From: an uncultured Fibrobacter sp.
GTDB lineage: Bacteria > Fibrobacterota > Fibrobacteria > Fibrobacterales > Fibrobacteraceae
DNA: 64,000 bases
Reading direction: 5' to 3'
NCBI RefSeq assembly: GCF_947166265.1
Contig: NZ_CAMVDO010000008.1
Span: 1-64,000, forward strand
Shown here: piece after piece, positions 5,141 to 58,200 of the stretch
How the letters are laid out: each line of letters opens with the position of its first letter
Numbering within the stretch: the first letter of the stretch is position 1
Translations under genes and position numbers: made by a program
The notes under the pieces: model-generated
The model's database searches: none
What the model was told of the DNA's origin: nothing
What the model saw: the letters and a program-made list of their open reading frames with translations, nothing else

Positions 5141-5231
5141 ACTTTTCCCTAACCACCAACCACTAATCACAACCTACTGTCTACCATCTCCATATTTGTC
5201 TTTTCTGTTAAATTTTCGTAAATTTGGGGAC

Positions 5232-22680: not shown

Positions 22681-23871
22681 CTACATGTCGCCGGTTTTCA
22701 GTTTGCTTCCGTCGCGGAGATTCGTGAGCACGAGCCCGAGCAACAGGTAGAATACCGCCTGCATAGCGAGCGGCAACAGAAGCGATGCCGCATCGTAAAT
22801 GTCGGCGCCACGCTGTTCAATCGCAAGCCATGCCGGAATGGCAAATGTCGAGGGCAACAGGCAAGAGAAACCCTTCATCCAGGCCGGAATCAGTTCGGTG
22901 GGCCAGCTAAAGTTCGAAAGGAACAGAATCGGGATGCTCATGTACAGGAACAGTTGCATGCTCGTTTCGCGGCGCAGGAATACCTGCGAAAGCACCATCC
23001 CGAAATTGATGACCGAGAACAGGAACACGATCGCAAAGGCCACCATCGGCAAAATTTCGCCGCGGCGCGGGAATTCGAACACGTTGTACACCACAAAGTG
23101 GTAGAACAAGATAAAGCTGCAGTAATGCAAGAAGTACGCAAGCGAGCGGCCAAAGTAGCGGTAAGGCATCAGCTCATTTTCGACGGAGCTGTCGCGTTGC
23201 AATTTGCGGAACTTGCGGTGAGCACGAGCTCCGCCCAGAATGCAAATGCCAATCACCAGCGTCTGCTGTAAAATCAGTACGAGTACGCTCGGCACCACAT
23301 AGTTGGAGTAGCTACCCGTGTTGTTGTACATGGTCTGCACACTGATGGGAATCGGGTCGCGCATGGCAATTGCCTTGGCCGCAGGGACTTTCTTGCCGAG
23401 GGCTATTCGCTTGACTTTGGTGGTGGCACCGACGGTGAGGGCGCAGGTCGCAAAGCCTGTCCCGATGTTTCCGTGGAGCATCACGTAGGCACCGTGCGTG
23501 AACACGTTCACGTTCGCCTTGCCGCCGTTGCGGAGCGTCTTTTCCATGTCCTTGGGAATTACCATGAAACCGTAGATTTTTTCGTTCGCTAGGGCGTCTT
23601 CGGCCTCGCGGATATCCGAAAATACATAGCGCACATCAATTTGCTGGGCCGCGGCAGACATCTGCGTGAGTTCGCGGGACATAACGGTATGGTCCAAGTC
23701 GACAACGGCTACGGGAATTTTCGACGCGGTTTGGTTCATGTAAGGAGTCGGATAATAGAAGGCATAAAGTACGCCTGCCACTACCAACAACAGCACTGCC
23801 GCAGGGTCGGTGTAGAAAAGTTTCCATTCGGCGAACGCCACCTTGAAAAGTCGCTTAAAGAGGTCAATCAT
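22681..23871 (-). CDS. ABC-2 type transporter permease (last gene of efflux operon)
   Basis: 396 residues. One N-terminal membrane helix (about 21-40), a large extracytoplasmic domain (about 45-215) with IPVAVVDLDHTVMSRELTQ, typical of the YhhJ/YbhR-like ABC-2 permeases, then five C-terminal helices. Its ATG overlaps the stop of the upstream permease gene by four bases. With the preceding genes it forms a TolC-HlyD-permease-permease operon. Such pairs export drugs or envelope components. No ATP-binding subunit is encoded in the operon, so one must be supplied elsewhere or the ABC-2 proteins use another energiser. It ends with Lys-Thr-Gly-Asp-Met. Confidence 0.85.
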   Translation of the reverse strand: MIDLFKRLFKVAFAEWKLFYTDPAAVLLLVVAGVLYAFYYPTPYMNQTASKIPVAVVDLDHTVMSRELTQMSAAAQQIDVRYVFSDIREAEDALANEKIYGFMVIPKDMEKTLRNGGKANVNVFTHGAYVMLHGNIGTGFATCALTVGATTKVKRIALGKKVPAAKAIAMRDPIPISVQTMYNNTGSYSNYVVPSVLVLILQQTLVIGICILGGARAHRKFRKLQRDSSVENELMPYRYFGRSLAYFLHYCSFILFYHFVVYNVFEFPRRGEILPMVAFAIVFLFSVINFGMVLSQVFLRRETSMQLFLYMSIPILFLSNFSWPTELIPAWMKGFSCLLPSTFAIPAWLAIEQRGADIYDAASLLLPLAMQAVFYLLLGLVLTNLRDGSKLKTGDM

Positions 23872-25115
23872 TTGCGCCCCCTTTCAGCCATATCAGAAGC
23901 GACCGCCTTGCGAATGCTTAAGTCCGAATAGACTGCGTCAGCAACATTCTTCAACTTATCCTTAAGGTGCAACTTTTCGCGGGCTTCCCAGTCCGCCTCT
24001 TTTTCTTCGGCGACTTTCCAGCGAAGCATCAAAAGCTTGGCAGCGAGCAAATGCCAGAATAAAGCCATGCACAAAAGCACCACAATCGATTCCCAGGCAT
24101 GGGCCTTGCCGACCGAGCCCAAGAGCATGGTAGACTGCACCTTCAAAATATGCGTGAGCGGAAGCAGGAATGCAAAACCGCGCACCACCAAGGGCATCGC
24201 CATCACCGGGAATGTCTGGCCTGCAAACGCAAACGCGGGGCCGGCGATAACGCCCGCCACGCTCGAAGACATACGCATGTTACCCGTGATGCCCACAAAG
24301 GCGGCCCCCGCTCCGGAACAAGCGAGAATCATCGCCAACTGCCCTGCAGACACCACCACAAATTCATCGAACGTCATCGGGGTAAGCGCACGGCGAGCAT
24401 ACGCATACACCGCCACCATCGACAGCCACTGAATCACGACCAGCGGCAAAACCGTCGCAGCGCCAAGCACCACGCGCGAGCCGCCCGCCGCCTGCAAAAA
24501 TTCGCGGACGCGGTGATCGCGGAACGGGAAACTGAAAAGGTAGACCGCCGCAAGGATTCCTGCCAGGTGGTAGATCGCCGTCACAAGACCGAGCCCCAAA
24601 AATCCCTGGTAGTTTCCGCTGAGGTTTCCGACCGACTTGAGTTCCACGCGAACGGGATCGTCCATCTGTTTGGTAAACATGTTCGCCCCGATTGTAGAAA
24701 TGACGGAACGGATTTCCTTTACGGCAAACGTATTCGTGAGGTAGTTCTGCCCGCTAGAATAAACGGGGATTACCGGCGCCTCCAGGCGAAGGGCACGGTG
24801 TTCCATATCGTAAGGGAGAACGATAAACGCCTGCAGGTCGCCACGGATTACGGCATGTTCGCAGTCGCTCCTATCTTCACATTCCAGGGCCACTTCCAGA
24901 ACCGGGTCCGCCTTGAGCGCCATCGTAATTTCGTCAGCAAGTTGCGATCGGTCCTGCTTTAAAATTCCAATGGGCACATGCTGGATGATTTCTGCCGAGA
25001 AAAAATTCACCATGAACGTAGAAGTGAACAGGGGCAAAATCAGGAGTACCAGCCACAGCACGATGTTGTGACTGACATAGATTTTCTTTACTGCTTTAAA
25101 AAACGATAAAAACAA
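23868..25115 (-). CDS. ABC-2 type transporter permease
   Basis: 415 residues with the same plan as its downstream neighbour: N-terminal helix (about 19-37), extracytoplasmic domain with VPIGILKQDRSQLADEI (about 46-175), and five to six C-terminal helices, then a charged cytoplasmic tail of about 60 residues. The start is odd. No ATG fits; the frame is closed by a stop just upstream, and TTG at 25113-25115 is the first possible start. It lies eight bases after a dispersed repeat, so the native upstream end may have been displaced. No Shine-Dalgarno is visible. The permease pair is expected to make a heterodimer. Confidence 0.8.
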   Translation of the reverse strand: MFLSFFKAVKKIYVSHNIVLWLVLLILPLFTSTFMVNFFSAEIIQHVPIGILKQDRSQLADEITMALKADPVLEVALECEDRSDCEHAVIRGDLQAFIVLPYDMEHRALRLEAPVIPVYSSGQNYLTNTFAVKEIRSVISTIGANMFTKQMDDPVRVELKSVGNLSGNYQGFLGLGLVTAIYHLAGILAAVYLFSFPFRDHRVREFLQAAGGSRVVLGAATVLPLVVIQWLSMVAVYAYARRALTPMTFDEFVVVSAGQLAMILACSGAGAAFVGITGNMRMSSSVAGVIAGPAFAFAGQTFPVMAMPLVVRGFAFLLPLTHILKVQSTMLLGSVGKAHAWESIVVLLCMALFWHLLAAKLLMLRWKVAEEKEADWEAREKLHLKDKLKNVADAVYSDLSIRKAVASDMAERGRK

Positions 25116-25123
25116 ACCGAATT

Positions 25124-25153
25124 GTCATGCCCGATTTAGTCGGGCATCTCCTG
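25124..25153. repeat. Palindromic intergenic repeat (GTCATGCCCGA...TCGGGCATCTCCT)
   Basis: ATGCCCGATTTAGTCGGGCAT is a near-perfect palindrome within a GTCA...TCTCCTG frame. It sits in the 52-base gap between the HlyD and first permease genes, just before the latter's TTG start. Confidence 0.7.
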
Positions 25154-25167
25154 TTCTAGAAGAAAAT

Positions 25168-26166
25168 TTATTGTATCTGTTCCACCGGGAAAAGGACGCT
25201 CATGCCCGGGCGCAGGTTTTCGATTTTCTGCTTCGGACGCAGGCGCACCTCGAAACTCTTGAGATCGAAACCGCCGCTTTCCTTGGAGCTGCGCCAGGTG
25301 GCATAGTCGCCTACCGAGGCTATGTAGCTGACTTCCATTTCGACATTCTTGTCGAGTGCCGGAATGAAAACGCTGAAGGATTTTCCCTTGGTGATGTTCT
25401 TGAGCAGGTCTTCGCGCAGGTGGAATACCGCCCAGGAATCGTCGAGGTCCGTGATGGCGACCACCGGCATGCCGGAGCCTACGACTTCGCCTTCTTCGAC
25501 GAGTTTGACGGAAACTTCGCCGGCGATGGGCGCGCGGATTTTCGTTTCTTCGAGGTAGGCGTCGACCTCGGCGTTGGCGCCCTTCGCCTGGAGCACCAGG
25601 GCGTTTGCGGCGGCGCGGTCTTCGGTGCGGGCACCGGCAAGGGCCTGTGAATACTGGGCCTTGGCCGCGTCAGCGGCAGACTGCGACGCCTTCATCTGCG
25701 TTTCAGCCTCGTCACGCTTCTGGAGCGGGAGTACACCCTCATTAAAAAGCTTCTGCACACGGTCGTAGGTATTCTTTGCAAGGTTCGCCGCTTCCTGGGC
25801 ACGGTCAGCCATCGCCTTTAACGCCGTAATGTCTTCGGAACGCGCCCCGTTCTTCGCCTTGTTCGCCTGGGCGCGAGCCGCTCCTAGGGCACCCTGGGCC
25901 TGAATCTTTTTTGCCTCGATTTCGGGACTACTGATAAGGGCAACAATGGCACCCTTTTCAACCACGTCCCCTTCGCGGAAGAAGAGGTTTTCGACACGGC
26001 CAGGAACCTTGCCCGCCACAAGCACGCGACGAGCTTCCATTTGTCCCTGCAGGTAAGCGTTTCGCGGTTCCGTCGCGAACTTCTGCAAGGTGACGATACC
26101 AAGGACAATCAAGGCAATCAATGCCAAGACGACCAGAATTTTACCGATTGCTTTTAAAACGTTCAT
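25168..26166 (-). CDS. HlyD-family membrane fusion protein
   Basis: 332 residues. An N-terminal membrane helix (about 8-26) anchors it in the inner membrane. VLVAGKVPGRVENLFFREGDVVEKGAIVALI starts the lipoyl/barrel-sandwich part, followed by a coiled coil rich in Ala, Lys and Gln (about 85-190), the second lipoyl half (KIRAPIAGEVSVKLVEEGEVVGSGMPVVAI) and a beta-barrel. It bridges the permeases to the TolC-like protein across the periplasm. It lies 48 bases after the tolC-like gene on the same strand. Confidence 0.9.
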   Translation of the reverse strand: MNVLKAIGKILVVLALIALIVLGIVTLQKFATEPRNAYLQGQMEARRVLVAGKVPGRVENLFFREGDVVEKGAIVALISSPEIEAKKIQAQGALGAARAQANKAKNGARSEDITALKAMADRAQEAANLAKNTYDRVQKLFNEGVLPLQKRDEAETQMKASQSAADAAKAQYSQALAGARTEDRAAANALVLQAKGANAEVDAYLEETKIRAPIAGEVSVKLVEEGEVVGSGMPVVAITDLDDSWAVFHLREDLLKNITKGKSFSVFIPALDKNVEMEVSYIASVGDYATWRSSKESGGFDLKSFEVRLRPKQKIENLRPGMSVLFPVEQIQ

Positions 26167-26214
26167 GGTTGACTCCAGTTAAAAAGTAGGAAGTTGGCAG
26201 TAGGACGAAGTCCG

Positions 26215-27930
26215 TTAGTGGTTAGGGAGTGCGGGGTTCGCCGTATCAGCAGGTGTAGGCTCAGCAATCTTTGCCGAATCGGCAACCGGTGCGGCAGCGG
26301 GAACAGCAACGGGTTCGGCGGGCTTCGGTTCCTCAACCTTCGTTTCCTCTACCGGTTTTACATCCTTAATCATTTCACCGGCGTTCGCCACCTCGCCGCT
26401 CGCTTCCAGAAGTCCAAGCCATGCAAGCACGGCATCGTAATGGGCCTTAAGGTCAGCCACCTGCAAGCGCGAAAGGGCTAGTTCGGCATCGACCACATCG
26501 AGGCCTGTCGCAAGCCCCGCCTCGTAGGCCAAAGTCTGACTACGGTGAGCCTCTTCGGCAAGTTCACGGGTTTTCTTCAAGCTTTCAAGGCGACTCTTGG
26601 CATGTTCCATTTCGCGCCAACGCTTTTCCACGAGGAGCCCGATGTTATCCATCGTCTGTTCTTCCATGCTTGAAAGCGAACGGTCAAGAGCCTTTGCGTT
26701 ACTCACCTTAGAACGTGTTTCGCCGCCCTTGAACAAGTCCCACTGCATCTTGGCACCCACGGCCCAGTCCGGTTCCAAGAGAGTCAAGTCTCGGGTATAG
26801 AGTTCCTTGTAAGCAAACAGGGCCACCGTCGGGTAGTAATCGGCACGGGCTGCACTCACGGCATCCTGGCTACGCTTGCGCTCGGTACGCAACTGGCGCA
26901 ATCCCGGATGTCTGTCTAAGGCAAGGCGCTTATACTCGTCCATGTCGATTGTCTGCTCCGGCGCCATCACCGGCGTAATTGCAGTGATGTTCGTATCGGT
27001 ATGCAACAGGCTTGCAAGGGCAAGCTTCGCGAGCGTCTGATCGCGATAGGAATCTTCCAGGGCGTTTTCAGCTTCCGCCAAGGCGACTTCGGCACGCAGG
27101 CGTTCCGCCTTGCTGATCTGGCCACCTTCTTCGAGTTTCTTGGAACGCGCCAGGTGTTCTTCCAGATTTTTCCTGGTGCTTTCACGAAGCACCGTCAACT
27201 CTTCCGCCAAGCGGAGCGTAAAATACTTGGTCGCCACATCCATCAGGATTGTATTTTGCGCCATGTCGAACGCCGCCTTTTTCGCATTCACGTTCTCCTT
27301 GGCCGCATCGTAGGCAGAATAAATCTTGAAACCCGTAAAAATCGGCCAAATGGCCGTCAGGCGCGCATTGAAAAACACGTCATCCTGGACCTTCATCCTA
27401 AAATCGGCATCGTCTATCTGCGACTTGGCACCTTCTAACTGCAGCCGAGTTTCAGCCTCGTACTTGTCCGCATTTTCTTGCGCAATTTCCTTCGCCGACT
27501 TTCCACCTAGTTTATCGCTAGCAAAAGCTGCCGCCTGTTCGTCGGAAAGTCCCTTGGCCTTAGCCCCCTGATAAGCCTGCTGATAGCCCGCATCCGCCTT
27601 GTTGTAGGCATCGATATACGCCTTGGAATAGGCTGCGGCAGGCCCCACCGTTGCAAGGCCGCCAGCAAGGCCACTCATGGCATTCTGAATTTCGCCCAGG
27701 TCAATGTAAATAGGGTCGTTAATCTTTGTAACGCTAGCCGACAACGTCAACTGAGGCATAAAACGTGACAAAGCCTCGGATTGTCCGCTTTCAGCCATAT
27801 CGACCTTTGCCCTTTCGGCCTTAATCTGCGAATTCCCCGCTTTCGCCATACTAATGGCATCGGAAAGCGAAATGGGCGCAGCAGAAACAGCGACACACGT
27901 CGCCAAACCCAAAATCACGCACTTTTTCAT
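26215..27930 (-). CDS. TolC-family outer-membrane efflux protein
   Basis: 571 residues. Signal peptide at 1-17. The body has the two repeated helical-hairpin blocks of TolC proteins (ISLSDAISMAKAGNSQIKAERAKVDMAESG at the start and RADYYPTVALFAY in the second half). Residues 60-190 contain an unusual extra helical insert with AAAYSKAYIDAYNKADAGYQQAYQGAKAKG. The last 60 residues form a Pro/Ala/Glu/Val-rich tail that is probably disordered. It is the first gene of the four-gene efflux operon and is divergent from batA. A TolC trimer would provide the outer-membrane channel. Confidence 0.9.
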   Translation of the reverse strand: MKKCVILGLATCVAVSAAPISLSDAISMAKAGNSQIKAERAKVDMAESGQSEALSRFMPQLTLSASVTKINDPIYIDLGEIQNAMSGLAGGLATVGPAAAYSKAYIDAYNKADAGYQQAYQGAKAKGLSDEQAAAFASDKLGGKSAKEIAQENADKYEAETRLQLEGAKSQIDDADFRMKVQDDVFFNARLTAIWPIFTGFKIYSAYDAAKENVNAKKAAFDMAQNTILMDVATKYFTLRLAEELTVLRESTRKNLEEHLARSKKLEEGGQISKAERLRAEVALAEAENALEDSYRDQTLAKLALASLLHTDTNITAITPVMAPEQTIDMDEYKRLALDRHPGLRQLRTERKRSQDAVSAARADYYPTVALFAYKELYTRDLTLLEPDWAVGAKMQWDLFKGGETRSKVSNAKALDRSLSSMEEQTMDNIGLLVEKRWREMEHAKSRLESLKKTRELAEEAHRSQTLAYEAGLATGLDVVDAELALSRLQVADLKAHYDAVLAWLGLLEASGEVANAGEMIKDVKPVEETKVEEPKPAEPVAVPAAAPVADSAKIAEPTPADTANPALPNH

Positions 27931-28173: not shown

Positions 28174-28252
28174 CAAAGCAAAGTCGCAATTCTCCTTTTT
28201 TTGTATATTCTTCCGCGAAAAGATTTAATTTTTGCGTTTTTTCGGAGATTTT

Positions 28253-29356
28253 ATGGATTTAGGTGCACTTCATTTTCAGAATCCCGAGGCCTTCTGGCTC
28301 CTACTTTTGGTCCCTGTTTTAGTCGGTTGGTACGTCTATCGTGAACACCGCCGCAAGAGTACCATCAAATTTCCGGCCCTTTCGATTGCCAAACGCGCCG
28401 TCCCGAGCAGACGCGTCCGTTTCCGCCATATCGTGCCGATTTTGCGCCTTGCCGCCCTTGTGTGCTTTGTCATGGCACTTGCCCGTCCACAGAACGCCAT
28501 GGAGGTGGAATACACCTCTACCGATGGAGTCGACATCATGCTCGCACTCGACGTTTCCGGCTCCATGGGCACGCTCGACATGCTCACCCGCATGGAACAG
28601 GCGAAACTCGGCGTCATGAACGCCGAACGCCTCCTGAAATCCGGCGACTACTGGAAATACAGCCGCCTGGGTTACGCCCAGCAGGTGATTGCAGACTTTA
28701 TCCAGAAACGCCACAGCGACCGAATCGGCCTTTCCGCTTTCGGAGCCCGCTCCATTACGCAGTGCCCGCTCACGCTCGATTACGGCTCGCTGCTTGAAAT
28801 TCTGAAAGCCACCGACGACCTCGCCCGCGATTCCATTATGAACAGCCGTACCGCCATTGGCGACGGCCTGATGAACGCCCTTGCAAGGCTCCAGAAATCC
28901 GAAGCCAAGTCCAAGGTGGTGGTGCTCTTGACCGACGGTCGCGACAACGCAAGCCTCGTGCCCCCGATGCGTGCCGCCGACGTAGCGCAGTCGCTGGGAG
29001 TCAAGGTCTACACGGTCGGTGTAGGCAAGAAAAGCGGCAAGATTCTCGCCTTCCAGCAGAATCCGTGGACTGGCGATATTTCCTGGGGCGAACGCGACAT
29101 CACTCCCGAAGAAGGCATCGACGAGAGTGTGCTGAAATCCGTTGCCCAAAAGACCGGAGGCCGCTTCTACCGCGCCGAGAACAAGGAAGAACTCGAAAAG
29201 ATCTATTCCGAAATTGACGAACTCGAAAAGACTGAAATCGAGACAGTCGCCTACGCCCGCTACGCCGAAAAGTTCTACCCGTGGCTTTTGGCAGGCGCCC
29301 TGCTCATTTTACTTGAACTGTTGCTTGCGAATACGCGCTTCGTGCGCATTCCGTAA
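28253..29356 (+). CDS. batA: BatA-like von Willebrand A membrane protein
   Basis: 367 residues from the ATG at 28253, which has CGGAG ahead of it. Two N-terminal hydrophobic segments (about 12-27 and 61-77) hold it in the inner membrane, followed by LARPQ, a mark of Bat proteins. The VWA domain carries the MIDAS motif Asp100-x-Ser102-x-Ser104 (ALDVSGSMG) and TDGRDN further on. One C-terminal membrane helix is at about 342-362. It is 12 bases from batB. With batD/batE it would form a Bat complex, but here the two pairs are 21 kb apart. Confidence 0.88.
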   Translation: MDLGALHFQNPEAFWLLLLVPVLVGWYVYREHRRKSTIKFPALSIAKRAVPSRRVRFRHIVPILRLAALVCFVMALARPQNAMEVEYTSTDGVDIMLALDVSGSMGTLDMLTRMEQAKLGVMNAERLLKSGDYWKYSRLGYAQQVIADFIQKRHSDRIGLSAFGARSITQCPLTLDYGSLLEILKATDDLARDSIMNSRTAIGDGLMNALARLQKSEAKSKVVVLLTDGRDNASLVPPMRAADVAQSLGVKVYTVGVGKKSGKILAFQQNPWTGDISWGERDITPEEGIDESVLKSVAQKTGGRFYRAENKEELEKIYSEIDELEKTEIETVAYARYAEKFYPWLLAGALLILLELLLANTRFVRIP

Positions 29357-29368
29357 TGGAGGTGTTGA

Positions 29369-30397
29369 ATGCGATTTGCTGAACCGATGTTCCTGTGGGG
29401 ACTCTTAACGCTCCCCCTGTTTGCGCTCCTTTTTGTGTATGCCTATCACCGTCGCAAGAAGCTTGCCGCCCGCTTTGTTTCGCTTTCGATGTTGCCCAAG
29501 CTTTCGACATCCGTTTCGCCGTGGCGCCGCCTTGCGAAAGTAACGCTGCTTCTTTTTGCGATAGCCTTCCTGTTCGTCGCCCTTGCACGCCCGCAATGGG
29601 GACGCAAGATGGAACACATCGAGCGCCGCGGCCTTGACCTGGTGCTGTTGCAGGACATTTCTCTTTCGATGCTCGCCGAGGACGTGAAGCCGAACCGACT
29701 CACCCGTAGCCGCCACGAAATTTCTTCGTTCCTGGAATCGCTTTCGGGCGACCGCGTGGGACTTGTGGCATTCTCCGGTGAAGCCCAGGTGATGGTACCA
29801 CTCACCCTCGATTACGGCACCGTGCAGATGATGCTCCGTGAACTTACTCCGGGCTGGCTCATGCCGGGAACGAACCTCGAAAACGCTATCCGCAAGGGAA
29901 TGTCCCTTTACAAGAATTCCGGTAGCGCAGGGCAGTATTCCGTGATGATCCTGATGAGCGACGGCGAAGAACTCGAAGCCGCCGCCGTCAACGCCGCGAA
30001 GGAAGCCGCCGAGATGGGCATCCGCATCTACACCATCGGCATAGGCTCCCGCGAAGGCGTGCCTATTCCCGTACCTTCGAAGAATGGCGAAGTCGCCTAC
30101 AAGAAGGACATGCAGGGAAACATCGTCACGACCCGCCTCGAAGACGGCACACTGCAAGAAATCGCAAGCGTCACCGGTGGCCTGTATTTTTACGCAAGCC
30201 CCGGCGAATTCCAGTTGCAGAAGGTGCTGACTGAAATTGCAAGCCTCGAAAAAAAGGACCAGGCATCCGACCGCATGGAAAATTACCAGGACCGTTACCA
30301 GATTTTCCTCGGACTGGCCGCCCTCCTGTTCCTGATCGAAGCGCTCGTGTCTGAAAGGGGCCGCAAGCGTCGCATCGGAGCCGGACGATTCAACTAA
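29369..30397 (+). CDS. batB: BatB-like von Willebrand A membrane protein
   Basis: 342 residues. The gene starts after GGAGGT. Similar plan to BatA: membrane segments at about 9-26 and 58-72, then LARPQWGRK and a VWA domain with the MIDAS residues Asp96-x-Ser98-x-Ser100 (LQDISLSM). A second conserved segment is AGQYSVMILMSDGEELE. A C-terminal helix lies at about 307-325. A terminator-like hairpin follows about 50 bases later. Confidence 0.88.
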   Translation: MRFAEPMFLWGLLTLPLFALLFVYAYHRRKKLAARFVSLSMLPKLSTSVSPWRRLAKVTLLLFAIAFLFVALARPQWGRKMEHIERRGLDLVLLQDISLSMLAEDVKPNRLTRSRHEISSFLESLSGDRVGLVAFSGEAQVMVPLTLDYGTVQMMLRELTPGWLMPGTNLENAIRKGMSLYKNSGSAGQYSVMILMSDGEELEAAAVNAAKEAAEMGIRIYTIGIGSREGVPIPVPSKNGEVAYKKDMQGNIVTTRLEDGTLQEIASVTGGLYFYASPGEFQLQKVLTEIASLEKKDQASDRMENYQDRYQIFLGLAALLFLIEALVSERGRKRRIGAGRFN

Positions 30398-30466: not shown

Positions 30467-30637
30467 GCTATTATTCCAACATGGTGTAAAAAAATAGGGT
30501 GGAATTCCCCCGAATCCCCCTATTTAAATAGGTTAGTTTGGTTTTTGTTCATCCAATTTTACACAAATAGGTATTAAATTTACTCCTTATTAAAGTAAAT
30601 TTTGGGTGAAAAGAAAAAGTTAACCAACGGAGTATCT
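30467..30637 (+). other. AT-rich upstream region of the DUF4956 operon
   Basis: Very AT-rich compared with the flanking genes. It contains AAATTTAC...GTAAATTT (30578-30605) as an inverted repeat about 30 bases before the predicted start, and several TATTAAA and TTTAAATA stretches that could hold a promoter. No convincing -35/-10 pair was fixed. Confidence 0.4.
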
Positions 30638-31321
30638 ATGCTCGACCTATTAGCCGTCCAGTCCGGCACCGCCAATGCCTCCCTTATTACATTGGCGTAC
30701 ACTTTGATCCTTACGTTTATCCTGTCCTCGATTATCGCCTGGACCTACGAAAAGACGTTCCTCGGACTTTCGTATTCGCGCAATTTTGTGCAGGCAATCG
30801 TGCTGAGTGCCGTGGTCGCCGCAACGGTGATGCAGGCCATTGGCGACAACGTGGGCCGCGGTCTCGGTATGATGGGCGCTCTTTCCGTGGTTCGCTTCAG
30901 AACAAGCTTTAAGGACCCGCGCGACATCATGTTCGTGTTCGCATCGCTCGGCGCCGGTATCGGTTGCGGCGTGTACGCCTGGGGAGCCGCCGTCGGCGGA
31001 ACAATCGCCTTCAGCATCGTCGCCTTCCTGCTTTCGCGCACGGGACTTGGAACCAAGCACTTCTTTGACGGCATGCTCCGTTTTGCTCTCCCGAACGAGC
31101 CCAAGGTTCGCGGCCAGATCGAAGACATCATGAAAAGCAGCCTCAAGACATTCATCTTGATTACGATGCGCGAAGTGGACGGCGGTGCCCGCCTCGATGT
31201 CGCCTACCAGATTCGCCTGCGCGCCACCAAGCCGGCAGCAGAAATCCTGAGTGATCTTTCCAAGATCGAGGGCATCTCGGACGTGCAGTTCATGATGCAG
31301 GACGCCACGACGGAAATGTAA
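30638..31321 (+). CDS. DUF4956 membrane protein
   Basis: 227 residues from the ATG at 30638 (preceded by CGGAG). Four membrane helices (about 18-36, 54-71, 94-112, 118-136) with GRGLGMMGALSVVRFRTSFKDPRDIMFVFASLGAGIGCGVY, the family's most conserved block, and a soluble C-terminal part resembling a ferredoxin-like sensor (SLKTFILITMREVDGG ... LSDLSKIEGISDVQFMM). Members of this family are often encoded next to VTC-domain polyphosphate polymerases, as here. It is first in an operon of five genes. The biochemical activity is unknown. Confidence 0.85.
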   Translation: MLDLLAVQSGTANASLITLAYTLILTFILSSIIAWTYEKTFLGLSYSRNFVQAIVLSAVVAATVMQAIGDNVGRGLGMMGALSVVRFRTSFKDPRDIMFVFASLGAGIGCGVYAWGAAVGGTIAFSIVAFLLSRTGLGTKHFFDGMLRFALPNEPKVRGQIEDIMKSSLKTFILITMREVDGGARLDVAYQIRLRATKPAAEILSDLSKIEGISDVQFMMQDATTEM

Positions 31322-31331
31322 GGGAGACCGT

Positions 31332-32396
31332 ATGAACAAGCTTAGTGATATGCTCGATAATTTTTGGAACACGCACAAGTCTAACGCCGGCGTCGCCTAC
31401 GTTTACGGACACAAGCTTTCAATCGCCTGGATCCTTTGCGTCATCATCGCGATTGTCCTTGGGTTCATGTACCAGGGCAAGATTGCGACCTTCCAGGGAA
31501 TTGCGGAAGCCGCCGAAACGACGATCAGCGTACCGAGCCCGACCGAAGTGGTCAAGGTGCACGTGATGCCGGGTCAGGCCATCGAAGCCGGAGACACCAT
31601 CGTTGAACTCAACCGCCCGGACCTGACGCTGCGCATCGCCGAAGTGACCCGCGAACTGGACGCAAGTGCAGGCCGCAGCAATCTTTCCGCCGCAGACATC
31701 GACCAGAAGGTCGCAGCGGTCAAGGCAGAACTTGCCACAAAGACTCTCACGCTCAAGTCCGAAATCAACAGACTCGAAGCCGAGTACAAGAAGAACAAGG
31801 AAATTGCCTCCAAGCTCAAGAGCCTGAAGGGTTCCAGCGCCGATAGCGACGGCAAGGACGCCATGGCCATGCAAATCAAGAGCTTGAAAAACGAACTGGC
31901 TGTCGCAAACGCTAACGCGAACGAACAGATCAAGCTCCTGAAGAGCAGCAACCGCCTGCAGAAGGATGCCGGCAAGAGCGAAGTCGAGAACCTGAAGAAG
32001 GAACTCGAAGAACTCAAGAAGCAGCAAGAAGAACTGGTACAGATTGCCAAGGAAAGCTGGGTCGTGGGTTCCGTGAACGTCCATGACGGCGAAAAGGTTT
32101 CAAGCTTTGCTCCCATTGTCACCCTCACCCACAAGTCCCCGACGCTTGTGCGCGGCTACATTCACGAAAAGATGCACCAGCGCATGGATATCGGCGAAAA
32201 GGTCAAGGTGAAAACCCTGAGCGGAACCGGCAAGGCAATCAAGGGCAAGGTGGTCGGTCTTTCTAGCCGCATCGTGGAATTCCCGGTGCGTATGTGGAAA
32301 ATGCCCGAAATGCCAATCCACGGCCGCGAAGTCATCATTACGATTCCTGCCGAAAATCCGTTCCTTCTGGGAGAAATGGTCACTATTTCGGAGTAA
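31332..32396 (+). CDS. HlyD-like periplasmic adaptor
   Basis: 354 residues; an AGGGAGA ribosome site lies just before the ATG, ten bases after the previous stop. One membrane helix is at about 30-46. The barrel-sandwich halves are AETTISVPSPTEVVKVHVMPGQAIEAGDTIVELNRP (about 60-95) and the C-terminal SVNVHDGEKVSSFAPIVTL (about 240-258). Between them a long coiled coil (about 110-235) contains KALKNELAVAN-like heptads and a KKELEELKKQQEELV end. The last 100 residues fit the barrel and membrane-proximal domains. It is much like an efflux adaptor but is placed between a DUF4956 protein and a TolC-like protein with no transporter, which is unusual. Confidence 0.8.
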   Translation: MNKLSDMLDNFWNTHKSNAGVAYVYGHKLSIAWILCVIIAIVLGFMYQGKIATFQGIAEAAETTISVPSPTEVVKVHVMPGQAIEAGDTIVELNRPDLTLRIAEVTRELDASAGRSNLSAADIDQKVAAVKAELATKTLTLKSEINRLEAEYKKNKEIASKLKSLKGSSADSDGKDAMAMQIKSLKNELAVANANANEQIKLLKSSNRLQKDAGKSEVENLKKELEELKKQQEELVQIAKESWVVGSVNVHDGEKVSSFAPIVTLTHKSPTLVRGYIHEKMHQRMDIGEKVKVKTLSGTGKAIKGKVVGLSSRIVEFPVRMWKMPEMPIHGREVIITIPAENPFLLGEMVTISE

Positions 32397-32406
32397 GTTC
32401 CATTAA

Positions 32407-32442
32407 CGTCATTGCGAGCACCGTAGAGTGCGAAGCAATCTA
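32407..32442. repeat. Dispersed repeat (CGTCATTGCGAGC...GAAGCAATCTA)
   Basis: CGTCATTGCGAGCACCGTAG followed by AGTGCGAAGCAATC forms an imperfect inverted repeat. Repeats of this wording are found in many unrelated bacterial genomes. It ends four bases from the ATG of the next gene and so removes any normal ribosome site. Confidence 0.7.
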
Positions 32443-32446
32443 TTGA

Positions 32447-33859
32447 ATGAAATACTTTATGAATCGCTTTGCTTTTATGTCTTTGTTTGTCGCAGCTCCC
32501 TTGATGGCCGCTCCCTTGACTTGGGAAACGCTTGTCCAGTCTGCAGACCAGGATGTGCGTTATCAGGCTTCTCAAAAGCGTGCAAACATTGCGACCTCCC
32601 GCAACACCAAGTTGTGGGAAAAGCTTGAACTCCGTTACAAGCTCGACGGCTTCAGCTTTGCAAGCCACGACTTTGAACTCCGCGTCACCCCGAAGGCATT
32701 CGGCGAAGGGGCTGCAGACCGCGCCCATTACGAGGCCCAGATGGCATACGCGAACGCGCACCTTGCCGAAGACCGCGCCATACTGCTTTACGACCGTTAC
32801 GAGCGCGCCATTCACTACGTCTTGCGCAAGCGCATCAACCAGCTGAACGCAGAACTCCTGCAGGTGAACTCTGACCGCATCGAAGTCCTCCACATGAAAG
32901 CCGGTTCCGCCAGTTTCAATCCGCAAGACCTGATGTCCGCTCTCGAAAAGGAAGCCTCCATCAAGGCAGCCCTCATTAACGACACCAACTCGCTCAAGTA
33001 CTCCGAATCAAAACTCCACCTGTTCGCAGGGGATTTCGACAGCATCGAACTCGATACCAGCTGGCTTCCGACCATGGAAGAAATCGAGGCTCAGCTGAAA
33101 GACGGTGTAGAAGTCAATGACAAGTTCCCGCTGCTCGCCAAGGCGAAAAGCAGGATGGATTCCGAAAAGGCACGCGGCAAGCAGGACGTCGCTAGCCGCC
33201 GCGACTACATTTCGCATATCGGAATCGGATATTCCATGAAGATCGAGTCCTTGATGAAAAAGTACAAGGACATCAGCTACAAGGATGTAACGGCAGGCGA
33301 CTACACCGACTTCTACGACGAATACATGCAAAGCGGCGGTTGCGACGGCGATTACGAAAACTCCGTCTGTAAGGGTTCCTACGCAAACGACTACCTGCTC
33401 GAAGCGCTCGTCGACGACAAGGATGGCCGCCGTACCCGCGACAAGTTCTTTGCAAACGTCGCCATCAAGCTTCCGTTCTTTGATTCGAACAAGGACAATG
33501 ACCTGCGCAACCAGGTGGCTGACCTCGATGCCGAAGGCGACTACATGGACGAAGTCCGCGACGTGAACCAGAAGGTCGGAAAGATCGTAGAACAAATTAA
33601 CGTTCTCATGGCCCAGTGGAAGGTGCAGAAGGAATTCGTCGAAAAGGTGAACGCCGGAAGCATTTTCGAACAGTTTGCAAAGGACGCCGGTTCCGATCCG
33701 CTGCTCCTGCTGCGTGCACGTGAAAGCGCCATTGAAAGCGAACTGAGCGCCACCAAGCTCGAAGACGACATTTTCAGCCTGTACCTGGAACTCTTGCAGT
33801 ATGCGGGAGTGCTTTCCCAGGAAGGTGTGCAGAACCACCTAGTAAGGGGGCTCAAGTAG
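32447..33859 (+). CDS. TolC-like outer-membrane protein
   Basis: 470 residues if the first ATG (32447) is used; the second in-frame Met at 32459 (MNRFAFMSLFVAAPLMA) gives the cleaner signal peptide. Neither start has a Shine-Dalgarno. The body is alpha-helical with two similar halves: MSALEKEASIKAALINDTNSLKYSESKLHLFAG and the later VEKVNAGSIFEQFAKDAGSDPLLLLRARESAIE, which correspond to the hairpin repeats of TolC. Residues 260-330 are an insert with a Cys pair (GGCDGDYENSVCKG), possibly a surface loop. It would form an outer-membrane channel connected by the preceding adaptor. Confidence 0.75.
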   Translation: MKYFMNRFAFMSLFVAAPLMAAPLTWETLVQSADQDVRYQASQKRANIATSRNTKLWEKLELRYKLDGFSFASHDFELRVTPKAFGEGAADRAHYEAQMAYANAHLAEDRAILLYDRYERAIHYVLRKRINQLNAELLQVNSDRIEVLHMKAGSASFNPQDLMSALEKEASIKAALINDTNSLKYSESKLHLFAGDFDSIELDTSWLPTMEEIEAQLKDGVEVNDKFPLLAKAKSRMDSEKARGKQDVASRRDYISHIGIGYSMKIESLMKKYKDISYKDVTAGDYTDFYDEYMQSGGCDGDYENSVCKGSYANDYLLEALVDDKDGRRTRDKFFANVAIKLPFFDSNKDNDLRNQVADLDAEGDYMDEVRDVNQKVGKIVEQINVLMAQWKVQKEFVEKVNAGSIFEQFAKDAGSDPLLLLRARESAIESELSATKLEDDIFSLYLELLQYAGVLSQEGVQNHLVRGLK

Positions 33860-33860
33860 T

Positions 33861-34709
33861 ATGGCCGAAGCCCGCGGATTCAGTCTTCTCGAAAGGTTCG
33901 AACTCAAGTACCACATTCCCGTGGAATGGGCGGACCGTATCGGCGCATTCCTCGCCCCCTACTGCGAAGAAGACTATTACTCCAAGATAACCCCGGGCGG
34001 TTTCTACTGGATTACGAACCTCTACCTGGACTCGCCCACCTGGACTTTCCTCGGCTGGAAAAAGAAACAGCTCCTGGACCGTTTCAACATGCGCATCCGC
34101 ACCTACGGCGAACACCCCGCCCAGGAAGGAACGTTCCATTTCGAATGCAAGCGGAAAATCAAGAATATCTGCTACAAGAGCCGCGGAACCGTCAAGGGGA
34201 TTAACCCCGGCGAAGTCTGGCACATGAAACCCGAGGACTGGCCGTGCAAGGGCGAAAAGGACCGCAAGTACGTCAAGGATTTCCTGTATAAGACCGAACT
34301 CTACAACGCCCACCCGCGCCTTTTGACGCAATACAAGCGTCGCGCCTGGTTCGGACTCCGCGAAGAGTACTCGCGTGTAACGATCGACACCGGAATGCGC
34401 TTTAGGGAAGAAAACGGATTCGACTACACGGTAGACCCGCACTACATGCATTCCACAGGAATTCCCCGCTTTTTCCAGCCCGGTTGCGACGCCGTGCTCG
34501 AACTCAAGTGTCCGTGTTCGCAGGTGCCGTACTGGATGTTCGACCTCATCAAGTTCCTGAACCTGAAACACGCCGCGTTCTCGAAATTTGGCAATGCAGC
34601 CGCCGAATGGAAACGCGTGTACGAAAATCCGAGACGTTTCAAGACCCCCTATTGGACAAAACTCGGATTACCGATCGAAGAAAATTTGTTAAATAGAGAA
34701 TGTGTATAA
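33861..34709 (+). CDS. VTC-domain polyphosphate polymerase
   Basis: 282 residues. The family blocks are all present: LLERFELKYHIP (basic tunnel entrance), YWITNLYLDSP, DRFNMRIRTYGE (about residues 74-85), FHFECKRKI, LLTQYKRRAWFGLREEYSRVTIDTGMRFR and VLELKCP. Lys and Arg residues in these strands line the ATP and polyphosphate tunnel in the characterised yeast Vtc4 enzyme, which makes polyphosphate from ATP; the Glu residues bind metal. It has no membrane segment, so it acts on the cytoplasmic side and probably docks on the DUF4956 protein. AAGGGGG lies ten bases before the ATG, only one base after the previous stop. Confidence 0.9.
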   Translation: MAEARGFSLLERFELKYHIPVEWADRIGAFLAPYCEEDYYSKITPGGFYWITNLYLDSPTWTFLGWKKKQLLDRFNMRIRTYGEHPAQEGTFHFECKRKIKNICYKSRGTVKGINPGEVWHMKPEDWPCKGEKDRKYVKDFLYKTELYNAHPRLLTQYKRRAWFGLREEYSRVTIDTGMRFREENGFDYTVDPHYMHSTGIPRFFQPGCDAVLELKCPCSQVPYWMFDLIKFLNLKHAAFSKFGNAAAEWKRVYENPRRFKTPYWTKLGLPIEENLLNRECV

Positions 34710-34723
34710 CAAAGGATACCTCT

Positions 34724-36319
34724 ATGGATATCAAAAAATTATTTGCAATGGGTCTCGGAGTATCCGCAATGGCATTCTTTGCGGCCTGTTCCGACGACAG
34801 CTCCTCTGCAACGGAACCTGAAGCAGATTCCTCCGAAAGCAGCGAACCCGCCTCCTCCGGGGAAACGATAACGGCGATGGCCATTACCGAAATCATGTAC
34901 AACGCGCCCAAGGGTTCGGAACTCGAATGGGTGGAAGTCACCATCGCAAGCGGCCCCGACCTCAAGAGCATGCTCGCCATGAACATGCGCCTGGACGGAG
35001 CAGTCAGCTTCGCATTCCCCGACGAACCGCTTGCCAAGGGCGAATACATCGTCGTCACGAACAACAGGGACCTGTTCAAGGAAACCTATCCCGACTTTAA
35101 CGGAAGACTTTTCGGTCCCTGGGACAACGACCCCTCCACGGGATCGGTCGCCAAGCTTTCGAACGAAGGCGACGTGATTGACGTGAAACTTTCGAACAAA
35201 GGTGACATCAGCTGTTCGTACAGCAAGGATCCTCCGTGGCCCTCTCTTGCAAACGGCAAGGGACGTACCCTGGTGTACAAGGGCGGTAACGCCGCGCAGG
35301 CGGCGTCCTGGGGAGCAAGCGCAGAACCCAACGGAAAGCCTGGCGTCGGAGACGACAAGTGGCTTACGACCTCTAACATCCGCCTGAACGAAATCATGCC
35401 GACGACCACGACTTCGGATGCGTGGGTTGAACTTTACAACGCCGGTTCCGAACCGGTTGACGTGACCGGCTGGGTATTCGAATCGAAAATCCGCGATCAG
35501 AAGCTTTCTATTAAGGAAGGCACCGTTCCCGCAGGCGGATACCTTGTCCTGGAAGCCAAGACCAGCTTTGACGAAGAACTGATCGTAAGCGACATCGGCG
35601 GCGCCTATTACCTGTACGGTGCCACCGACGGTGACGAATCCAGTCTGTTGCTTCCGTCCAGCAAGCTTTCGAGCGGTGTTGTGGACCTGAGCGACGGTTC
35701 TACGGCACAGGGCGCCCTGAAGACCGCCACCAAGGGCGAAGCGAACTCCGCGCTCTACATCGGAAGCCTTATCATCAACGAAATCCAGTACCACCCGAAC
35801 GCAGACGATCCGAACCAGGTGGAATTCCTGGAACTCAAGAACACGTCGGATGCAGCTATAGTGCCCTACGAAAAATTGACGAGCGGTGACGTCAGAGGCT
35901 GGAAAGTGGAAGGTATCAACTTCGAATTCGCAAATACCGACACCATTCCTGCCGGAGGCCTTGCCGTGCTGTTCCCTGAATCGCTCAAGACCGTCCTCGG
36001 CGAAGACGTGATTCGCAGCCGCTATTCGATCGGAAACGAAGTCAAGGTCAAGTTCTACAGCGGCAAGCTTTCGAACCGTGGCGAAACAATCGCCGTGAAA
36101 AAGCCCTACTTCCACCAGAAAGATGCAAGCAATCCGCTGAACGACCAGTGGTTCTACGACTGGTCCGATGCGACTCTCTATAGCGATAACTGGAGCGGTA
36201 ACGGAATCGACTACAAGCGCGCAGACGGTTACGGATACAGTCTACAGCGCAAAGACACGAGCACCATGGGCTACGAAGCCTCCGCGTGGACCGTAGGAGA
36301 ACCGACCCCCGGAAAGTAA
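34724..36319 (+). CDS. Lipoprotein with three lamin-tail-like domains
   Basis: 531 residues from the ATG at 34724 with AAAGGA ahead. The lipobox is Phe-Ala-Ala-Cys with Cys at residue 24, followed by an acidic Ser/Glu linker. Three LTD-like beta-sandwich domains follow: about 50-180 (AITEIMYNAPKGSELEWVEV), 215-340 (IRLNEIMPTTTTSDAWVELYNAG) and 350-510 (IINEIQYHPNADDPNQVEFLELKN). LTD domains on bacterial surface proteins are often near CotH-kinase and VTC genes. It is the last gene of the operon, 14 bases after the polymerase. It probably sits on the outer-membrane surface or periplasmic face and binds a partner. Confidence 0.85.
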   Translation: MDIKKLFAMGLGVSAMAFFAACSDDSSSATEPEADSSESSEPASSGETITAMAITEIMYNAPKGSELEWVEVTIASGPDLKSMLAMNMRLDGAVSFAFPDEPLAKGEYIVVTNNRDLFKETYPDFNGRLFGPWDNDPSTGSVAKLSNEGDVIDVKLSNKGDISCSYSKDPPWPSLANGKGRTLVYKGGNAAQAASWGASAEPNGKPGVGDDKWLTTSNIRLNEIMPTTTTSDAWVELYNAGSEPVDVTGWVFESKIRDQKLSIKEGTVPAGGYLVLEAKTSFDEELIVSDIGGAYYLYGATDGDESSLLLPSSKLSSGVVDLSDGSTAQGALKTATKGEANSALYIGSLIINEIQYHPNADDPNQVEFLELKNTSDAAIVPYEKLTSGDVRGWKVEGINFEFANTDTIPAGGLAVLFPESLKTVLGEDVIRSRYSIGNEVKVKFYSGKLSNRGETIAVKKPYFHQKDASNPLNDQWFYDWSDATLYSDNWSGNGIDYKRADGYGYSLQRKDTSTMGYEASAWTVGEPTPGK

Positions 36320-55251: not shown

Positions 55252-58200
55252 TTAGTACACAGTTACAGTCTTCGAACAGATTCTCGTTGCTTCTGGAGCT
55301 TGTCCTTGCGTACAAACAACACTAAATGTCGTTGTTGAATTAACTGTATAATTCAATGTTTTCGTAGTAAAGTTCTGGTTTTGGTCATTATTCAGCCAAT
55401 TTCCATTTATCTTAAATCCGCAGGAATTCGATTGGGCTCCATAATTTGTATTTGCTGTACCCGAGAAGGTGATTTGTGTACCTGCAGCGACATTCTCTTC
55501 AGAAATGCTACAGCTAACAGGAGGTACAACATAGAACGTAGGCAATGTTTTACAAGGATTAAAGCCGTCCTTTTGGAAAGAACATATATACTTTCCAGGT
55601 GTGGAAGGCGCCGTAAAATTAACATCATCACAGGAACCACCCGTTCTACACAAAGGTTCTGCCAACGTTTGGTTTGCACAAATCATAGGAATCTTTACGT
55701 CACTAGTCGGTGCAGGTTTCATTCCTGAAACACTTAATTTAAGATTCGTTTCACCCACCATAACACTATCCTTATTATTGTTATTACGAACCTTACACGT
55801 TGCATTTCCTCCACCAGTATTACCGGCATCATACACAACCGAGCAATCATGAGAGGTTGTTCCAGATTCATTTGTCAATTCAACAGTATAGCTCTTGGTT
55901 CCTGCAGTAGTTACAGTATTGTCAGTAAACGCTGTCAAAGCGCCACTCTTGTACGCCGTCCCTGTCACACTGGTACCACCAATTGCATAGCTACAATCGT
56001 TTTCATTTTCATCACATCCAGTAACGCTTCCTAAAGTAAACGTCACAGGATCCCCAATTGTAACACCCACTGCGGTCGGGCACGAAAAACTAGGTTTATT
56101 TATGGACATTGCCACAGAACAATCTGTCGCTTCACCATTCAACCACAACACATATGTGCCATAACCTGTAAAATCAAAATTATAGCTTGCATTGCCAAGA
56201 TTCTGTCCAGACGCCCCAGACAAAGAGGTTGTAGTACCCTTATATGTTTTCTTCACCTGATACGCACAGGCATTATTTTGACAGGGGTTTGCTACATCAA
56301 TATGGAAGCTTCCATTATTTGAACAAGTCAATCCAATGTCCGCAACCGAGGTTGTTGCTGTGCAAGAAGTCTGGTAGTTTTGATCATTGTCTTTCACATA
56401 CAGCACAAACGATTCAGACTTTACAGTAAGCGCACCAGAAATATTGATCGATTCATTGGATCCACAACTGGTTCTTCCTTCAGCAACTTTATCTGTTCCG
56501 CGCATCAATTTATAATCTCGGTTGCAGATGTTGATACCCTTTTCATTCACAGAGAATCTGAATGTCGCCTGGGCACCAGGCTGAGACACAGCGGCATCGA
56601 ACGCACATTCCGTTCTCACATCGTCATTCGTGACAGTCTTTTCTTCGATTTCAAAAGTTGCACTACATTCAGGGAATGGCGCAGACGATCCCTCTGGGCT
56701 TCGCACCGTATAGGTGTACGTTCCCGCAGGGTAATTATCCGTTTCCGTATTTCCCGCAGGGGTTTTGTTCACCGTAACATTCTTACTATTTCCGGAGCAA
56801 TCGTTTACAGAAGAACAATCGTTTAGCTTTTGAGTAGAATTCAGATAAATGTCATAATCACATCCTGCTTCCGGGCAACCGCTATGCGTAAAGGAGAATT
56901 GCGGCAAACCCTCTCCTTGCTTTTTCTTCGCAGGAGTTACACTGCAACTTGCATAAATAGAACTGATTGGATCCGGAGAAACAGAGCAAGCTGTCGCCGT
57001 TTCTGTACCGGCCTTATTACGTACAGACACAGACACCTTGTAAGATTTTCCCTGATTACCTGCATAAGGGTTATCCGCCTTGGTGAATTTCGCTCGATTT
57101 CCATCACCTTCCCAGGTTGGCGTTGCAGATGTAGAAGGAATGCTCCACCCTGTACCTTCTTCCACAACGGCATTGACAGCATAAGCGGTCACCTTGTCTT
57201 TATTGACAATTTCAGCTAAGATTTCCCATTGACCGTCATCGTTTTTATAAGTTGCCTTACATTCCGAAACGCCCACTGTATTTTTACAATTGGCAACGAC
57301 CTGCTTCACAACAACATTCGTCGCGGTTCCCAAATTCTTGAAAACAAGCTTTCCAACCTTTTCAGGGTCAAAGCCATCGGCGCCGGCAGTCATTTCAGCA
57401 TTGACATCAAAACCGCCCACATTCGTTTTCATCAACGCGGATTGGCTCTTAATAAATCCCTTGAAATCAATCCAGTTCGTTTCAAATTCTCCATCATGTT
57501 TACTTTCCAACCATATTTCAATTTCGTTGTTATAATTATTTTCCAACAAAATATTCAATGTCGTTGCACGCAAATTTACTGGAGGGTCAAACGTAACCGT
57601 CGATTCCAAATTCGAGCCCAATTCCAGATCTTCACTCAACAAATTGGCGTCTTCTACACATTCATCAAACTTACCCGTCCAGAAAGCTCCGCAATGAGCA
57701 CTATTTTCGGGAGTCGCAGTAGTCCAAGCATTTTCCTGTTGCGGTAAATGGCAATCAATCCAGGCACGGGCTGTTTTTATATCCTTTTCGTTCGCATTAA
57801 CGTAACCGTGCGGGCCCGCACCAGCATCCGCAAATTTATAGTTTCCATTACATGTCGCAATAGAATTGTCCGAAGCACCGCAAGCATCCGAGCCGTTCTG
57901 GTAATAGTATGTTTTAGAACAATTATATTCTTTGCTATCAAACCAAGCGGAGTGACCTATCCACGGTTCCACGAGAGTATCAGTCTTAATATAACCATCG
58001 ATTGCTTTTGCTGCAAAGGAACATTTTATCGTAGGATAGGTGTCATGACATTCAGACGAGTAAGATTCGCTCGCCCAGCCAATTCCGTATAGTTTCATAT
58101 TCGGATCCGCAAGACTGAAACCAACGAATTCATGAGCCTCATCCGCATACTTATAAGTAAACTCATTCAAGTCAAATTCATGGACATATTCTTCAGTTGC

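Follow-up and report, generated by a model that had tools for sequence, protein, structure and literature searches.

In a 64,000-nucleotide stretch of an uncultured Fibrobacter sp. genome (positions 1 to 64,000 of contig NZ_CAMVDO010000008.1, hereafter the window), five co-directional genes on the + strand (30638-36319) encode a DUF4956 membrane protein, a HlyD-type adaptor, a TolC-fold channel, a VTC polymerase and a lipoprotein with lamin-tail (LTD) domains. We found that the first four of these genes form a block that recurs in at least six phyla of two-membrane bacteria, and we propose that this DUF4956-adaptor-channel-VTC core is a trans-envelope polyphosphate machine, which would both make polyphosphate and move it across the envelope; we assign this reading a probability of roughly 50%. 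Its direct basis is gene content, conservation, co-evolution, folds, catalytic residues and an association with phosphate genes. A preliminary description of the locus had suggested that polyphosphate is moved or coupled across the envelope, and its interpretation as a whole was partly supported.

The gene arrangement is far beyond chance, since the same order recurs across the phylum Fibrobacterota and outside it. VTC was present in 136 of 168 Fibrobacterota genomes, and the neighbourhoods of 60 loci revealed two architectures around VTC and DUF4956. The first, DUF4956-adaptor-channel-VTC-LTD, was found in Fibrobacter and many other genera belonging to three or more families, while in the second CotH and Cthe_2159 genes accompanied the pair VTC-DUF4956. 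A gene of the OprP/OprO-type porin family (Pfam Porin_O_P; best 2.9e-6) directly followed DUF4956 in 10 of 13 cases of the second architecture, suggesting that both architectures pair VTC-DUF4956 with an outer-membrane passage, the porin being an independent route. CotH and Cthe_2159-type genes adjoin the porin loci (L033, L035-L039, L060-L062, L068-L069).

When 84,980 species genomes were scanned for relatives of the cassette DUF4956, 272 were obtained, 80 of which were kept. All four genes lay on one strand in 23 of the 34 loci fetched from outside Fibrobacterota, with either DUF4956 first or DUF4956 last, and the hosts were Desulfobacterota, Calditrichota, Delongbacteria, Nitrospirales, Gammaproteobacteria and Halobacteriovorax/Oligoflexia. 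Ten of the remaining 11 loci reach a contig end (counting L120), and the gammaproteobacterial locus L169 (8001-10623) carries DUF4956, adaptor and VTC with no channel gene between them. Complete genomes with the cassette include those of Desulfonema magnum and Desulfoluna limicola (Desulfobacterota), and the loci from Planctomycetota and Campylobacterales are partial. Strong DUF4956 matches were obtained in 25 of the 389 Desulfobacterota genomes sampled and in 5 of 369 gammaproteobacterial genomes, two of these being the other form, indicating that the cassette is rare in Gammaproteobacteria. The evolutionary distances of the four proteins were correlated (r 0.68-0.92; 0 of 999 permutations), and in a concatenated tree the Chitinispirillaceae-type cassettes grouped with Desulfobacterota, away from Fibrobacter, which suggests that the block was transferred whole, as a unit. 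A plasmid search found only distant DUF4956 genes on seven records and no evidence of a cassette. These scans, which the preliminary description had put forward as the check on its grouping, thus placed an adaptor and a channel beside DUF4956-VTC in many genomes and not in this genome alone, and its statement that DUF4956-VTC is tied to CotH-kinase genes elsewhere was also borne out.

The VTC domain of the window protein scored 104 bits, above the PF09359 family cut-off of 23, and the family profile matched the crystal structure of yeast Vtc4 (3g3q; 6.9e-19), although a single-sequence Protein Data Bank (PDB) search with the window VTC returned no real match. When Vtc4 active-site positions were mapped by alignment, 14 of the 14 checked were kept in the window protein (Vtc4/window: R196/R12, K200/K16, R264/R78, R266/R80, K281/K97, K294/K106, R296/R108, R361/R160, R373/R172, D377/D176, E426/E214, K428/K216, S457/S241 and K458/K242); in yeast, the substitutions R264A/R266A/E426N inactivate Vtc4 (PMC9911596). 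The full set of tunnel residues named in the preliminary description was therefore present, and activity is predicted. No SPX domain, transmembrane (TM) segment or signal peptide was detected in the window VTC, in which the VTC domain was the only domain found. Overall, the protein is likely a soluble Vtc4-type polyphosphate polymerase with predicted ATP-dependent synthesis. In Desulfamplus magnetovallimortis, VTC is split into two open reading frames (ORFs; L096:12290-13110), representing a broken gene or a sequencing error.

The window DUF4956 protein matched the NCBIfam MgtC/SapB family at 2.2e-4, below threshold (20.9 bits against a cut-off of 214), and gave no match to Pfam MgtC. At the level of profiles, hhalign aligned 79 cassette DUF4956 sequences with MgtC at 96.5% over 202 columns, compared with approximately 0.1% for unrelated controls, and a distant DUF4956 member (G167/L074) passed the Pfam MgtC cut-off (33.2 against 31.4). 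The AlphaFold 2 (AF2) model showed five helices followed by a beta-alpha-beta-beta-alpha-beta domain, and in structure comparisons this C-terminal domain matched ACT/ferredoxin-type folds, including the C-terminal domain of Mycobacterium tuberculosis MgtC (2lqj); the ACT-type domain alone was matched, with no full-length fold match seen for the membrane part. Residues G77, R86 and R88 were invariant across both DUF4956 types of Fibrobacterota. From profiles and the model, the protein is predicted to be MgtC-like, with about five TM segments and a C-terminal ACT-type domain. The Streptococcus intermedius homologue SIR_1592 has already been described as MgtC plus ACT (PMC12345266).

The adaptor matched Pfam HlyD_3 and HlyD_D23 and has one N-terminal TM anchor. 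Alignment revealed a family-wide C-terminal motif (RIVEYPxRL...GREV...LLGEKV); the hairpin tip has no clear R-x3-L-x6-S/T sequence (the RLS/RLT TolC-binding motif), and a conserved LKS lies near it. In most loci outside Fibrobacterota a phytase-like propeller is joined to the C-terminus of the adaptor, a domain which the window adaptor lacks, and in Chitinispirillaceae a stand-alone gene, placed between those for adaptor and channel, encodes the propeller (loci showing the one or the other arrangement are L100:8749-10755, L139:2540-4507, L107:9789-10709 and others). The possibility that these long adaptors are two tandem adaptor copies was ruled out by split-half comparison and Pfam, which identified the phytase-like propeller. 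For the channel there was no Pfam or NCBIfam match, and sequence-profile PDB searches with the channel, DUF4956 and OprP-like alignments each returned nothing significant. The AF2 model of the channel (predicted local distance difference test, pLDDT, 86) matched TolC over its full length (Foldseek 4.7e-11), with a VIA Z of 24.1 over 369 residues compared with 7.3 for the best unrelated fold; as modelled, the channel is TolC-like by fold and not by sequence family. Pfam matches for DUF4956, HlyD, VTC and LTD together with this predicted fold agree with the gene identities first proposed. No ABC, MFS or RND transporter is encoded within the cassette, either in the window or in the outside cassettes. 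The earlier claim that the pair lacks any transporter accordingly holds inside the cassette, but a complete ABC-2/adaptor/OEP operon adjoins the cassette in Fibrobacter.

In contrast to the core, the surface partner varies between lineages. In nearly all Fibrobacterota LTD was the last gene, following the cassette; most cassettes of Desulfobacterota, Calditrichota and Delongbacteria had CotH or CotH-plus-LTD proteins next to them; and cassettes of Gammaproteobacteria, Nitrospirales and Halobacteriovorax were often without LTD or CotH in the stretches read. Therefore, the core consists of the four genes DUF4956-adaptor-channel-VTC, and LTD is a lineage-specific partner outside it, with CotH or phosphate-transport genes found elsewhere instead; of the five-gene cassette originally described, the four-gene part recurs and the fifth member is not universal. 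Secreted proteins of approximately 1100-1150 residues without Pfam matches adjoin Halobacteriovorax/Oligoflexia cassettes (L124:12729-16058, L127:769-4209, L127:4411-7857, L129:12469-15798), and two gammaproteobacterial cassettes have divergently oriented genes for DUF6502 and DUF5666 lipoproteins on their upstream side (L120:5005-7412, L122:4834-7134).

Three lines of sequence evidence tie the block to phosphate: neighbouring genes for PiT, Pst, PhoU and phytase-like proteins, the propeller fusions, and the OprP/O-like porin of the alternative operon. By Pfam matches on neighbours, two gammaproteobacterial loci (L158 and L204) have a PiT (PHO4) gene that separates the channel gene from VTC, and other loci read VTC-PiT-phytase-like (L122), channel-PhoU_div-PiT running to the contig end (L120), VTC-PstS-PhoU-PstC (L131) and VTC-phytase-like (L139); in a related form, a Na/Pi cotransporter gene comes after an operon of the order DUF4956-LTD-VTC (L074). 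Phosphate genes touch 6 of 11 gammaproteobacterial/Nitrospirales cassettes, the probability of which is 3e-8 to 6e-6 if a chance of 2 to 5% per locus is assumed, this density being an assumption. The polyphosphate kinases PPK1 and PPK2 were not found in the host genome, and PPK1 was found in 3 of approximately 80 Fibrobacter genomes and in 6 of 23 outside cassette genomes, absence from the other 17 being inflated by incomplete assemblies. Among genera of Fibrobacterota, PPK1 occurred in 5 of 17 with the cassette versus 8 of 10 with the other form (Fisher p 0.018, in a hand tally uncorrected for relatedness).

These observations fit a mechanism in which VTC, in the cytosol, would make polyphosphate from ATP at the inner membrane, and DUF4956 would form or gate the inner-membrane passage and may sense phosphate status through its cytosolic ACT-type domain. 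The HlyD-type adaptor and TolC-fold channel, presumably in a complex with these proteins, would conduct the chain outward across the periplasm and the outer membrane, and polymerisation would push the growing chain along, as it does in yeast VTC. Lineage-specific partners would then use, anchor or recycle the polymer on the far side; candidates for this role are the LTD lipoprotein (Fibrobacter), CotH kinase-like proteins (Desulfobacterota) and the phytase-like propeller with PiT (Gammaproteobacteria). No pump is encoded, we suggest, because polymerisation itself would drive transport, and an adaptor and channel would be needed because a two-membrane cell requires an outer-membrane route; Gram-positive versions occur without them (PMC7112168, PMC12345266). 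In yeast, polyphosphate is made by VTC on the cytosolic face and threaded through the membrane, with synthesis coupled to translocation (PMC9911596), and luminal phosphatases together with the Pi transporter Pho91 recycle vacuolar phosphate (PMC12668673). For the movement of polyphosphate across the envelope, as first suggested, the support is indirect and comes from the phosphate-gene neighbours, the porin alternative, the propeller fusion and the yeast precedent; that polyphosphate is the polymer transported is what we infer from these. More tentatively, and with the odds somewhat against it, export may be pump-free through the MgtC-like protein, adaptor and channel; the envelope would then correspond to the polyphosphate vacuole of yeast, and the machine would take the place of PPK in many lineages.

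Several points weigh against this proposal. The DUF4956 model is of low confidence (pLDDT 72; predicted template modelling score 0.52), and the AF2 models are of monomers only, so that assembly of a conduit would go beyond them. MgtC relatives are known as regulators and not as polymer channels. The pattern of phosphate neighbours was seen before it was tested, and of the later-fetched loci (L203 and L204) one of two fits; moreover, no phosphate gene adjoins the cassette in Fibrobacter itself. Finally, in S. intermedius, Pel levels change when the DUF4956 gene is lost, while mutants without the VTC gene showed no clear defect, which fits regulation too (PMC12345266).

The strongest competing explanation, which we consider unlikely although well short of negligible, is regulatory: VTC and the MgtC-like DUF4956 would set cytosolic phosphate/ATP status and thereby switch a surface process, and the adaptor and channel would export some other product, a polysaccharide or another polymer of the surface, perhaps together with the ABC-2 transporter encoded nearby. 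MgtC of Salmonella affects phosphate transport via PhoR (PMC6658541), DUF4956-VTC-CotH occurs in Pel loci (PMC7112168, PMC12345266) and in other polysaccharide clusters (L205, L215-L221), and an ABC-2/MFP/OEP operon lies near the Fibrobacter cassette (22681-27930 in the window). However, this operon comes with an adaptor and a channel of its own and was observed next to the cassettes of Fibrobacter and genus g10 only, there is no common transporter or polysaccharide synthase beside the outside cassettes, PelG was not found in the host genome, and channel and adaptor show co-evolution with both DUF4956 and VTC. The phytase-like propeller and PiT, together with the fact that OprP/O-type porins are uptake channels (PMC9769906), would also accommodate scavenging, in which the adaptor/channel or porin admits external polyphosphate or pyrophosphate, a periplasmic phytase-like domain and PiT recover phosphate, and VTC runs in reverse or acts as a polyphosphatase. 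We regard this as improbable, as TolC-adaptor systems are export conduits, VTC keeps the full polymerase residue set, and Fibrobacter cassettes have neither propeller nor PiT. Less probable again is that the LTD or CotH proteins are cargo of the adaptor and channel, in the manner of type I secretion: one or the other gene is adjacent in most Fibrobacterota and Desulfobacterota cassettes, but the cassette encodes no ABC exporter, the cassettes of Gammaproteobacteria, Nitrospirales and Halobacteriovorax often have neither protein in the stretches noted above, and LTD has its own Sec route because of its lipoprotein signal. A local cluster of five functionally unrelated genes can be set aside, since several phyla preserve both the gene order and the gene content, the proteins evolve in a correlated way, and nothing specific supported it beyond the commonness of same-strand gene strings; chance clustering was ruled out by the neighbourhood scans.

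The layout of the locus in the window is given in the table. The ORFs agree with the five genes on one strand as first described, with intergenic gaps of 10, 50, 1 and 14 bases when the LTD start is taken as 34724. The longest LTD ORF begins at 34700, within VTC, while the start at 34724 yields the lipoprotein signal MDIKKLFAM...FFAAC, in which the lipobox FFAAC is followed by SDD. An alternative in-frame TTG at 30602 is possible for DUF4956, whose relatives begin at the MLDLL methionine. The host genome carries a single VTC, a single DUF4956 and nine CotH genes, none of the latter near the window cassette.

Table. Genes of the DUF4956-adaptor-channel-VTC-LTD locus in the window
Product	Position	Strand	Length and support
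DUF4956, MgtC-like inner-membrane protein (predicted)	30638..31321	+	227 aa, ATG start; Pfam PF16316 1.5e-11
HlyD/EmrA-type periplasmic adaptor	31332..32396	+	354 aa; Pfam HlyD_3 3e-10, EmrA-like NCBIfam 3e-13
TolC-fold outer-membrane channel, signal peptide	32447..33859	+	470 aa; predicted fold
VTC-type polyphosphate polymerase, TTM fold (likely)	33861..34709	+	282 aa; Pfam VTC 1.2e-29
Lipoprotein with lamin-tail domains (LTD)	34724..36319	+	531 aa; Pfam LTD 3.9e-25, three stretches

Around the cassette, OEP, adaptor and two ABC-2 permease genes form the second tripartite operon mentioned above (22681-27930, - strand); this operon lies downstream of the cassette on the same strand in most Fibrobacter relatives, and here it is upstream on the opposite strand. 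Two BatA-type VWA genes (28232-30397, + strand), kept in some Fibrobacter only, end approximately 240 bases before the cassette begins, positions 5196-7040 hold a BatD-type gene, and a 2507-codon ORF (55252-62775, - strand) is without any Pfam match.

To our knowledge, no export route has been established by which bacteria deliver polyphosphate to their surface or to the exterior. In gonococci, polyphosphate forms a pseudo-capsule at the surface (PMC10237660). Bacterial polyphosphate export becomes directly testable with a conserved block that combines a Vtc4-type polymerase, its membrane partner and a complete outer-envelope conduit. DUF4956-VTC-CotH has been described as a Pel-locus accessory (PMC7112168), and SIR_1592/SIR_1594 mutants alter Pel and aggregation, the authors having found no such synteny outside Pel (PMC12345266). 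Contrary to the latter, our genome scans placed the DUF4956-VTC pair well away from Pel loci, whether or not CotH accompanied it. Loci L205, L206 and L215-L221 carry DUF4956 and VTC, often with CotH and no adaptor or channel, several of them among glycosyltransferase, sugar-epimerase and flippase genes, with no Pel context noticed. In the literature searched, we found no description of the adaptor/channel form, including VTC with HlyD/TolC, which is weak evidence given the limited coverage; this version is apparently new and, should export be demonstrated, would count as an export system of a new kind. If the proposed polyphosphate machine is correct, it would provide a function for DUF4956 and account for the joint occurrence of VTC, DUF4956 and CotH in Pel loci and in other loci for surface polymers. 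It would also represent a tripartite system whose inner-membrane engine is a polymerase and not a pump, and an envelope counterpart of the yeast vacuolar phosphate buffer of VTC, polyphosphatases and Pho91.

Among known systems, the yeast VTC complex (Vtc1/Vtc3/Vtc4; PMC9911596) shares with the cassette a Vtc4-type TTM polymerase with the same catalytic residues and a membrane partner, but the cassette VTC has no SPX and no Vtc1-type TM domain, and its companions are an MgtC-like protein, an adaptor and an outer-membrane channel. The likeness extends to the yeast vacuolar phosphate buffer (PMC12668673), in that some relatives have a far-side phosphate importer and a phosphatase-like domain. 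In the Gram-positive Pel module (PMC7112168, PMC12345266), DUF4956 (MgtC plus ACT) likewise lies beside VTC, there with a secreted CotH nearby, whereas the window cassette has no pel genes and no adjacent CotH and adds the adaptor and TolC-fold channel. MgtC/SapB proteins resemble DUF4956 in having a membrane core and an ACT-type C-terminal domain, with homology at the profile level; the window protein differs in falling below the family cut-offs, in its conserved RFRT motif and in that DUF4956 is always found with VTC. As in HlyD-TolC/EmrA-TolC efflux and type I secretion, a HlyD/EmrA-type adaptor and a TolC-fold channel share one operon, but in place of the ABC, MFS or RND transporter of those systems the cassette has a polymerase and an MgtC-like protein.

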